Shown: positions 1,110 to 24,455 of the stretch, piece after piece
Position numbering within the stretch: the first letter of the stretch is position 1
Layout: each line of letters begins with the position of its first letter
Virus record (IMG/VR): IMGVR_UViG_3300032116_000972
Span: 1 to 29,768 of that record
Length of the DNA stretch: 29,768 nt
Strand: one strand, 5' to 3'
DNA from: a virus
Translations under genes and position numbers: made by a program
Notes under the pieces: model-generated
Told to the model about the DNA's origin: nothing
Databases searched by the model: none
Seen by the model: only the letters and a program-made list of their open reading frames with translations

Positions 1110-1742
1110 ATGAAAGATTCAATGGTAATTTACCGCTCGTTTTATGAAGCCTTAAACGGCTTACCTGAGCAAAACCGTTTAGAGGTTTGGGCGGCAATAT
1201 GTGAACTCGGTTTTAATGGAGTTGAGGTTGAGTTAATCGGATTAAGTAAAACGATTTTTATGCTTATAAAGCCACAAATCGAAGCAAATAACCGTAAGGC
1301 AATAGCAGGTAAAAACAACGGTTATTTAGGCGCTGAACATGGTAAAAAGGGAGGGCGACCACGAAGCGAAAAACCCCCAACGAAACCCACTAAAAACCCC
1401 CAACAAAACCCTCAAGAAACCCACAAAGAACCCACTAATGTAAATGTAAATGCTAATGTAAATGAGAATGATAATGTAAATGCTAATGCTAATTTTAAAA
1501 AGTGGGGCAAAGACGATTTGATTAAATCAATGACACAATACGCTGAACGCTACCCTAAAAATATGCTGAACGAGTTTTTTAACTATTGGGCAGAACCTTT
1601 AGCAAATGGTAAACTAAGACTAACGGCTCAAGATGCTTGGGATACTGGGCGAAGGTTAGTAACATGGAGCAAACGCGATAAAGAAAACAAACCACAAAAC
1701 GCCGTAGTAACACGCGCCTCGATGGGGGTTAAGATGCAGTAA
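1110..1742 (+). CDS. DUF6291-type putative replication organiser
   Basis: A 210-aa protein. The N-terminal ~85 residues (MVIYRSFYEALNGLPEQNRL onward) resemble the DUF6291 domain common in Bacteroidota phages, followed by a KKGGRP turn, a Pro/Thr/Gln-rich linker, an Asn/Val/Ala repeat, and a C-terminal domain with aromatic-rich helices. A variable linker between two small domains, directly upstream of a helicase gene, is typical of phage replisome organisers or helicase loaders; that role is inference. I chose ATG 1110 rather than TTG 1044 because the longer form would be encoded by the structured leader and starts poorly. The linker DNA carries phased repeats described separately. Confidence 0.65.
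   Translation: MKDSMVIYRSFYEALNGLPEQNRLEVWAAICELGFNGVEVELIGLSKTIFMLIKPQIEANNRKAIAGKNNGYLGAEHGKKGGRPRSEKPPTKPTKNPQQNPQETHKEPTNVNVNANVNENDNVNANANFKKWGKDDLIKSMTQYAERYPKNMLNEFFNYWAEPLANGKLRLTAQDAWDTGRRLVTWSKRDKENKPQNAVVTRASMGVKMQ
1371..1488 (+). repeat. AAACCC iteron-like array followed by AATG hexamer repeats (candidate origin)
   Basis: AAACCC occurs at 1371, 1383, 1394, 1406 and 1417, with GAACCC at 1428. The C-tracts begin at 1374, 1386, 1397, 1409, 1420 and 1431, so spacings are 12, 11, 12, 11 and 11 bases. These are not codon multiples, so amino-acid repetition alone does not explain them. Next comes an AT-rich array with AATG every 6 bases at 1437, 1443, 1449, 1455, 1461, 1467, 1473, 1479 and 1485. 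Iterons beside an AT-rich stretch inside an initiator gene recall phage origins such as lambda's in gene O; the origin function is inferred. Confidence 0.5.
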
Positions 1743-1773
1743 GAAAAATATTTTTAAAATAATTTAGAAAAAG

Positions 1774-1804
1774 TTTGCAGAATCAAAATATAGTTGTATG
1801 TTTG
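1774..1804 (+). promoter_or_regulatory. promoter of AT-rich mini-gene cassette 1
   Basis: TTTG 1774-1777, 19-base spacer, TATGTTTG 1797-1804. The motif TTTGCAGAATCAAAA covers the -33 box (1774-1788) and nearly repeats as TTTGCTGAATCAAAC just after the -7 box (1801-1815), where a repressor could bind. The leader ends in TTAAACACTTACAC (1818-1831) directly before ATG 1833. The control region is close to identical in layout to that at 21683-21742. Confidence 0.7.
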
Positions 1805-1832
1805 CTGAATCAAACTCTTAAACACTTACACC

Positions 1833-2045
1833 ATGAACTTTCAAATCACAATCCAAAACGCTGAACGAAACAAGAAAGCAATTATTAATAGAACGCTGCT
1901 ATCTGATGGTTATAATTATTACATAACAATTTACACCTACTCAAATAGTTCTAATTTTTGGTTTATAAATGAAAACATAAAACAAACCGAAACAATCTTA
2001 AGCAAAAACAAAGCAATAGAAATTGCTGAAAAAATAATAGGATAA
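1833..2045 (+). CDS. hypothetical protein, 70 aa (mini-gene cassette 1)
   Basis: AT-rich small gene encoding a protein rich in Asn, Ile and Tyr with no recognised domain. Alternating hydrophobic residues in the first half (FQITIQ, YYITIYTY) suggest a beta-sheet, and the C-terminus is a likely helix. It has its own consensus promoter and is followed by a GC-rich hairpin, so it can be transcribed apart from the surrounding replication operon, as morons are. Base composition is clearly more AT-rich than the helicase gene downstream. The partner cassette with the same control region is at 21743-21967, but the two proteins do not look related. Confidence 0.6.
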   Translation: MNFQITIQNAERNKKAIINRTLLSDGYNYYITIYTYSNSSNFWFINENIKQTETILSKNKAIEIAEKIIG

Positions 2046-23464: not shown

Positions 23465-23499
23465 AAAACGCGTCCAGTAATCGGGGCGCGTTTTTTTTT
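23465..23499 (+). terminator. strong, probably bidirectional terminator
   Basis: AAAACGCG 23465-23472 pairs with CGCGTTTT 23487-23494, with T9 at 23491-23499 on the plus strand and AAAA (TTTT on the minus strand) on the other side. It lies between the plus-strand 90-aa gene and the convergent GIY-YIG gene and can stop both. Confidence 0.85.
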
Positions 23500-23839
23500 A
23501 TCGGTATTTATCGCGGCTCATTTTACGAGCGCCTCCGCCTATCTTTTTATTTGGGTGTAAACGTTTATACTCACAAACCTTATAATTTTCAAATACGCAA
23601 GCCAACCCCAACTCTATTGTATGCGTTGGCATAGTTTCAATTATTTTAATCGGTTTATTTTCCTCTGTAAATTTAGCAGCATAGCCGCCTATATGTTGTT
23701 TAAAACGCTTATTTATATCAATAGCTACACCAACATAAATAGAATTGTTTTCGAATTCTAAAACGTAAACAAAGTATTGTTTTTTTGTTCGATAGCTTGT
23801 TGGCTCAGTATAGCCCTTTACATTATTGTAAACTGCCAA
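23498..23839 (-). CDS. GIY-YIG nuclease domain protein (probable homing endonuclease)
   Basis: The only clear gene on the minus strand, 113 aa. YFVYVLEFENNSIYVGVAID (residues about 22-41) gives the two GIY-YIG strands (VYVL and IYVG), DINKRFKQHIGG gives the catalytic Arg (R45), and IELGLACVFEN carries the conserved Glu region. The only in-frame start is TTG 23839. An ATG nine codons further upstream is one A short of frame, in an A9 run (minus strand). It is AT-rich and lies in a head operon transcribed the other way, so it is probably a mobile element. Upstream on the same strand is a large structured region. Confidence 0.8.
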   Translation of the reverse strand: MAVYNNVKGYTEPTSYRTKKQYFVYVLEFENNSIYVGVAIDINKRFKQHIGGYAAKFTEENKPIKIIETMPTHTIELGLACVFENYKVCEYKRLHPNKKIGGGARKMSRDKYR

Positions 23840-23912
23840 CTTTGTTTTTTTTGTTTTCTTTTTTTTTGAGCCATCAGTATTATAATATTACAATAAACTT
23901 ATAGTAGTTTAT

Positions 23913-24016
23913 GTATAGCTTTTTGGTGAATCCTGAGAAACTGTGAAAGCATGATTAGCCCAAAGCGGTTTTAAATCGCTTTACGCTTTCACAATTTCGT
24001 TCGTATAGCTTTTCGG
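23913..24016. repeat. direct repeat flanking a hairpin
   Basis: GTATAGCTTTTTGG (23913-23926) and GTATAGCTTTTCGG (24003-24016) differ at one base, lie exactly 90 bp apart, and bracket the 52-bp hairpin at 23942-23993. Both are followed seven to nine bases later by ATCC. They may mark a duplicated RNA module or an insertion event. Confidence 0.6.
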
Positions 24017-24201
24017 AGCCATCCTTCGAACGCTGTGCCTAACAGGTCGCCGTGCCTTATTAGGTTGGAGTCTATTTTACGAGCCATTCGGTAGCCCGAT
24101 TAGTAGTGCGGCTCACTCCTTTGCATCACCGCTGTGCTGGTACTAATGCCCACTGTAACACTTTTTACAAGTTCGCAGCCGTAGTTTATCCCGACCGAAC
24201 T
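23913..24201 (-). ncRNA. large structured region upstream of the GIY-YIG gene
   Basis: There is no convincing gene in this ~290 bp stretch, but at least five stem-loops (plus-strand coordinates). TGTGAAAGC 23942-23950 with GCTTTCACA 23985-23993, enclosing AAAGCG 23962-23967 with CGCTTT 23977-23982. CGTTCG 23998-24003 with CGAACG 24027-24032. GGAGT 24067-24071 with ACTCC 24115-24119, continuing as GAGCC 24081-24085 with GGCTC 24110-24114 and TCGG 24088-24091 with CCGA 24096-24099. GCAT and ACC 24123-24130 with GGT and ATGC 24139-24149. AGTTCG 24170-24175 with CGAACT 24196-24201. The strand is not certain; minus is chosen because it precedes the nuclease ORF, as RNAs do in HEARO-type elements. 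Confidence 0.45.
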
Positions 24202-24221
24202 AAATTTTATTTTTAGGGAAT

Positions 24222-24257
24222 AAAAAAACCCCGAAGATACTTGCAGTTATCTCGGGG
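24222..24257 (-). terminator. intrinsic terminator on the minus strand
   Basis: CCCCGA 24229-24234 pairs with TCGGGG 24252-24257, and GATA 24236-24239 pairs with TATC 24248-24251, with a bulged base and an 8-base loop. Read on the minus strand it is followed by T7 (A7 at 24222-24228 on the plus strand). On the plus strand no T-run follows, so it is directional. Confidence 0.8.
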
Positions 24258-24319
24258 ACTAATTTGAACGGTTAGGTTCTAATTTTTTGCCTTTACGAAA
24301 CAGCTGCAAGAATGTTTCG
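24222..24319 (-). ncRNA. candidate small RNA with complementary hairpin loops, about 95 nt
   Basis: A consensus minus-strand promoter (24353 to 24324) and an intrinsic terminator bound this segment, which has no ORF of note. The 5' hairpin pairs the minus-strand forms of 24313-24319 and 24296-24302 (CGAAACA/TGTTTCG, 7 bp) around a 10-base loop containing CTTGCAG. The terminator loop contains CTGCAAG, its exact complement (plus-strand 24240-24246 versus 24304-24310). The loops can therefore kiss over 7 bp, in cis or between two molecules. It could be a free small RNA or a leader with an attenuator for the structured region and GIY-YIG gene downstream. Confidence 0.55.
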
Positions 24320-24323
24320 AGAG

Positions 24324-24353
24324 CAAATATAAAACGACTTTTTTAAATACAAA
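24324..24353 (-). promoter_or_regulatory. minus-strand promoter of the small RNA
   Basis: On the minus strand TTTG (24353-24350), an 18-base spacer and TATATTTG (24331-24324) match the Bacteroidota consensus. The start would fall near 24317-24320, exactly where the first hairpin begins. It points away from the capsid gene. Confidence 0.65.
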
Positions 24354-24455
24354 AACATTTCGTAAATTTACAGCGCTCAAATGACAAATTATTTTTAGGC
24401 TTGAATCTTTGCCGCCTATTAAGTGCAAAGACAAATTCTAAAACCTAAAAACAAA

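Follow-up and report, generated by a model that had tools for sequence, protein, structure and literature searches.

Genes and features at the locus

The stretch of DNA analysed here (29,768 nucleotides, referred to as the window) belongs to a phage that encodes DnaB, a portal protein and a T4-type large terminase (Terminase_6N). The element under study, referred to as the module, is encoded on the minus strand and comprises a promoter, three hairpins (H1, H2 and H3) and a U-tract (Table 1). It is flanked by a putative capsid gene on one side and, beyond a structured RNA, by an ORF with a GIY-YIG domain on the other; the 'capsid' label was taken over from the original prediction, and PHROGs and Pfam gave that protein no name. 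The coordinates that the original prediction had assigned to the promoter, to H1 and to the terminator, and the two 7-nt loop blocks that it had named, were found correct on re-checking; H2, a competing extended fold, a structured RNA downstream and the hypervariability of the module were missing from it.

Table 1. Features of the module and of the adjoining downstream region in the window
Feature	Position	Strand	Basis
Promoter, Bacteroidota-type, TTG-N18-TATATTTG	24324-24352	-	strict-motif scan
Hairpin H1, 7-bp stem CGAAACA/TGTTTCG	24296-24319	-	fold and alignment; predicted RNA 5' end
Loop-1 block CTTGCAG	24304-24310	-	fully complementary to loop 3, with covariation among relatives
Hairpin H2	24261-24284	-	local folds of relatives, by eye
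Terminator hairpin H3	24229-24257	-	stem covaries
Loop-3 block CTGCAAG	24240-24246	-	exact complement of loop 1
U7 tract, intrinsic terminator	24222-24228	-	sequence; kept in 10/10 distinct sequences
Structured RNA B1	23880-24221, 3' end approximate	-	compensatory changes relative to L061/L062
GIY-YIG domain ORF, 3' of B1	23498-23839	-	PF01541, E 5.3e-9

On the minus strand of the window the module promoter is the sole strict match to TTG-N17-23-TAnnTTTG, where TAnnTTTG is the Bacteroidota promoter consensus (PMC9723704). Counted from the first base of H1, the TAnnTTTG (-7) box of the module occupies -12 to -5, which equals the box-to-+1 spacing reported for Flavobacterium psychrophilum (PMC9723704). 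Because of this position of the box, the first base of H1 is the predicted +1, and the module RNA is predicted to be approximately 98 nt long with its 5' end exactly at H1. The promoter position was kept in 9 of the 12 other relatives scanned, variant boxes being present in L010, L016 and L092, and the predicted +1 as well as the U7 tract were conserved across the relatives carrying the module. A generic scan of the window for sigma-70 promoters and terminators, which is uninformative for such organisms, listed neither the promoter nor the terminator of the module.

Occurrence in related phages

A search with the capsid protein yielded 80 viral loci, a subset of which has the module at the same place, and pattern scans added L092 and L108. 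About 15 viral contigs beyond the window were found to have the module ahead of their capsid gene, and one more has a copy truncated at the contig end. When 50 whole viral records were searched with a covariance model, the module was detected in 10, once in each, and nothing appeared elsewhere at a convincing score; the other 40 records, many of them of 34-38 kb, are relatives without the module. Some relatives without it carry other sequence at the site. We regard the carriers as a group of uncultivated Bacteroidota-type phages.

Further viral pattern scans and a model search added no family members, returning beyond the known copies unrelated or low-scoring sequence; a match in an Elizabethkingia phage was rejected because the similarity was limited to the promoter. 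A terminator-pattern scan of bacterial genomes gave 10 matching stretches, and the module was absent from the three that were read. No relative of the capsid protein was found in the isolate phage collection. At the gathering thresholds of Rfam 15 the module, in the window and in relatives, matched no family, and the permissive matches overlapping it were weak and far below threshold. We consider the module a new RNA family: its kind (a terminator-linked leader with alternative pairing and kissing loops) is known, the combination is new.

Other observations were made on the capsid side of the site. In the module-less relatives L004, L005, L007, L012, L014, L023, L025, L063 and L072 another putative RNA was seen at the same site upstream of the capsid gene, with the pairings GAGGGGG...CCCCCCTC and TGCAAGG...CCTTGCA; those tested had no Rfam match above threshold. 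The 5' leader of the capsid mRNA (window ~24375-24455, plus strand) was predicted to fold, in relatives too, and is a possible leader element. Many capsid leaders have in common an outer stem resembling ATGTAGT...ACTACAT and a GTAGGC, which by eye could form a pseudoknot with a GCCTnnTAA loop. A weak match to DUF2815 RNA was obtained at the capsid leader (27.1 bits, gathering 41.2), not in L016. On the strand of the capsid gene, L055, L061, L062, L016 and L092 have a strict Bacteroidota promoter at about -23 to -52 of H1, where it overlaps the module promoter; the corresponding box of the window is imperfect (TAAATTTA). Because the promoters overlap, the divergent capsid and module transcripts may exclude each other.

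Complementarity of the two loops

The 10 distinct module sequences contain 8 loop alleles (CTTGCAG, CTTGCGG, CTTGCGC, CGGGCGG, CGAGCGG, GTGCAG, GTGCCG and GTGCCT), and in each sequence the loop-1 block of 6-7 nt and its counterpart in loop 3 are perfect reverse complements. Aligned in a hand-made register, 4 of the 7 loop pairs had changed on both sides, none was broken, and the central GC was invariant. When loops were re-paired among the alleles, swapped loops lost the full match and the native pairing sum was reached in 0 of 100,000 re-pairings, a figure that is not a strict probability because the sequences are related and the sample is non-random. Among 20,000 dinucleotide shuffles of the segment, 6 produced a pair of hairpins whose loops are complementary over a 7-nt block, and one more site of this kind is present elsewhere in the window. 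Since the native pairing is complete across relatives and was unmatched by the re-pairings, the complementarity can no longer be attributed to chance. Moreover, because the complementary loops change together between relatives, the pairing of loop 1 with loop 3 is clearly under selection. The original prediction had proposed a small RNA with complementary loops and had staked it on conservation of the loop pairing in relatives: pairing was complete in all 10 distinct sequences, and the strong loop-loop covariation, together with the conserved promoter and terminator, supports the proposal at the sequence level. A search of the cognate genomes for trans-targets of the loop block found none, match counts ranging from below to a few-fold the crude equal-base expectation.

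H1 approximates an inverted copy of H3, and such repeats can homogenise, so the possibility was considered that the complementarity is a DNA-level feature: an inverted repeat, a site of recombination or protein binding, or what template switching between quasi-palindromes has left behind. However, the complementarity is confined to the loops, the stems differ and compensate within H3, and both the promoter and the U-tract are conserved and keep their register with the hairpins. We regard an explanation at the DNA level as highly improbable.

Complementary loops that vary are also found in a phage RNA of known type, the phi29 pRNA. Here, too, the loops of a phage RNA vary yet are always complementary, and a putative capsid gene adjoins, as might be expected of a packaging RNA with interlocking loops encoded beside that gene. 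Against such a role, the module is not universal in the group (40 of the 50 relatives are without it), the T4-type large terminase (Terminase_6N) represents a different packaging motor, and there was no Rfam match at gathering threshold, nor any pRNA family among the permissive matches. A phi29-type pRNA was set aside on these grounds, and we give hardly any credence to a packaging role.

Covariation of the stems and an alternative fold

The stem of H3 covaries independently of the loops (5 pairs changed on both sides, 96% of cells paired), and that of H1 is nearly invariant, hence without a covariation signal either way. H2, which is weak in the window phage, varies in sequence yet still folds in several relatives, where the local folds, inspected by eye, were stronger and of different sequence. 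In all three types of H3 upper stem the pairing blocks coincide with the loop limits of the intact hairpins, and for this reason kissing of the hairpins is favoured.

The agreement between blocks and loop limits in the three H3 types would also suit a purely structural kiss, which would stabilise the released RNA by tucking in both ends, or would stabilise its 3' end, and would involve no switch; the 5' end of the RNA lies in a hairpin and its 3' end is the terminator. A structural role alone would, however, favour neither rapid diversification of the loops nor a constant link to the RNA downstream (see below), and it seems to us quite improbable.

Nested folding preferred one long hairpin in all 10 sequences, formed by pairing of H1 with H3 via the loop blocks and more stable than the local fold. 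In this extended fold the 5' half of H3 is taken up by the 3' half of H1, and formation of the terminator would be prevented. In all 10 cases the extended fold replaced H1 as the predicted minimum-energy fold when loop 3 had emerged and before the 3' arm of the terminator was complete. When the native preference for the extended over the local fold was compared with that of sequences having a randomised, still paired H3 upper stem, the fraction of random stems that were as good was 0.00-0.07 for 7 sequences and 0.13-0.17 for 3. The inner antiterminator helix alone was no better than random H3 upper stems; the result of the test was carried by the outer helix, of which just 4 bp are kept in the window phage. 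Most nucleotides beside the loop blocks stay unpaired when the extended folds are predicted, therefore kissing of intact hairpins fits better than a selected long duplex. Kissing and strand exchange are both live alternatives; the folding energies used contain no kissing term.

Divergence of the module

The module diverges much faster than its flanks. Identities upstream of, within and downstream of the module were 94%, 59% and 98% between L108 and L010, 100%, 66% and 83% between L016 and L092, and 99%, 84% and 100% between the window phage and L006. The identity of the loops was altered, via recombination or diversifying selection, while their complementarity was kept, and changing loops with kept complementarity would be the pattern expected of a self-recognition or specificity element.

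Divergence far in excess of the flanks, with loops that diversify fast yet remain exact complements, is also what speaks for a stand-alone trans-acting sRNA, whose terminator would be merely its end and whose loops would serve self-recognition by forming homodimers or rings (H1 with H3 of the next molecule). In a variant of this explanation the RNA would pair with that of a co-infecting relative, as in incompatibility or RNA-based immunity. Furthermore, H2 of L010 leaves few unpaired bases between H1 and H3, which, to judge from the lengths, would strain an intramolecular kiss. A trans-acting sRNA would, on the other hand, leave unexplained the constant promoterless RNA behind the module, and the single-copy module is restricted to 10 of the 50 relatives searched. 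Taken jointly, the stand-alone sRNA and its variant appear somewhat unlikely.

RNAs and ORFs behind the terminator

The U-tract is directly followed by a structured RNA (B), which is B1 in the window, L006, L011, L061 and L062, and B2 in the remaining module carriers. Compensatory changes are seen in B1 and B2 alike, and for both the minus strand gives the better fold (-85.0 versus -74.2 on the other strand for the B1 region). No strict Bacteroidota promoter was found on the minus strand in the interval between the module and B, and all B1 and B2 homologues found have the module directly upstream; L109, a seventh match to the B1 pattern, proved to be an unrelated chance match. Because the identical modules of L061 and L055 precede different B RNAs, module and B are separable. 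On the 3' side, B1 is followed by the GIY-YIG ORF, or by another ORF in L062; behind B2 there is either a small basic ORF or no ORF.

Several further observations concern B1 and the ORFs behind it. The 5' hairpin of B1 (window 24216-24161, minus strand) carries GUCGGGAUAAACUACGGC, which matches the consensus of HOLDH RNA (RF02997); against that model B1 scored 22.6 bits (gathering 319.4) and covered model positions 7-61 of 391 only. The hairpin also resembles Betaproteobacteria-1 RNA (RF02932, 26.0 bits), and the three perhaps have a sub-domain in common. Relative to L006, the GIY-YIG frame of the window seems shifted near its start (~23860-23830, minus strand), at an A-run that is 1 base shorter. 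In L062 a different ORF of 187 aa (~1362-1925, minus strand) follows B1 in place of the GIY-YIG gene; its opening codons agree with those of the GIY-YIG version in L061, which suggests that the coding part was exchanged behind a fixed RNA. By eye, the 187-aa product resembles Mom/GNAT-like proteins.

Discussion

The interpretation that we favour, tentatively and at a probability just short of even, is a leader or sRNA in which the loop-loop pairing sets the balance between termination, giving the 98-nt RNA, and read-through into B. Transcription would start at the first base of H1. If H3 forms, a three-hairpin RNA of about 98 nt would be released; if it fails, the polymerase would continue into B1 (B2 in relatives), and in some phages also into the next ORF. 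Loop 1 could pair with loop 3 from the moment the latter emerges from the polymerase, when the terminator still lacks its 3' half. This pairing could remain a loop-loop kiss of two intact hairpins, or it could be the toehold for strand exchange to the extended fold, in which case the terminator would be blocked. The constant linkage of the promoterless B to the module and the switch to the extended fold in all ten sequences argue for a leader with conditional termination, and hence for the modulation of termination that the original prediction had suggested; what argues against it is that H3 with its U7 by itself looks like a strong terminator and that module and B are separable. Dimers or antisense control, which the original prediction had also suggested, may occur as well. 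The loop pairing is strongly supported, and what we infer is a regulatory role, the read-through and its control by the loops, and an action in cis or in trans.

Given the allele specificity of the loops, a released copy could act on nascent RNAs of its own allele while sparing those of other phages. The module could in that case be an RNA switch between self and non-self, in which the released RNA kisses nascent leaders of the same allele and sets termination before B, to the effect of exclusion or copy control; we consider this unlikely.

Like a trp-type attenuator (1:2, 2:3, 3:4), the module has a promoter, a leader, an intrinsic terminator before a downstream unit and, in the predicted folds, mutually exclusive helices, and what its sequence provides in this respect is a promoter, then an intrinsic terminator, ahead of B. 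Unlike the trp-type attenuators it has no leader ORF or known ligand, its downstream unit is itself a structured RNA, and its 2:3-type pairing is centred on hairpin loops and allele-specific. In ColE1, RNAI and RNAII are antisense transcripts of one DNA segment, their loops of about 7 nt pair fully, and paired mutations of the loops change specificity. The size of the paired loops and the change of specificity are alike in the module, whereas both of its loops are in one minus-strand transcript; on the opposite strand, strict promoters were detected upstream of the module in some relatives, but none across it. A ColE1-type pair of antisense transcripts was thus rejected.

The immunity RNAs of P4 (CI RNA) and P1 (c4 RNA) are short phage RNAs proposed to act on premature termination of their own transcript. 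The likeness lies in a short phage RNA for which an action of this kind is proposed; no sign of lysogeny or of trans action was seen here. A further phage RNA, IsrK of the Salmonella prophage Gifsy-1, is an sRNA made by termination; its promoter also yields a read-through isoform, the RNA has alternative folds, and it acts on the translation of orf45 (PMC4825925). IsrK provides a precedent for both features, the longer isoform and the alternative folding, in a phage sRNA; its likeness to the module is one of description, no orf45-like mRNA being known here.

The site of the module is a capsid-adjacent hotspot at which phages swap structured RNAs of unknown function. To our knowledge, no RNA family described so far has a 5' hairpin kissing the loop of an intrinsic terminator, with the pairing selected and allele-specific. 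Should termination be under the control of the loops, the module would be a switch that needs no ligand and can be programmed by sequence, and nature would supply eight matched alleles of it.
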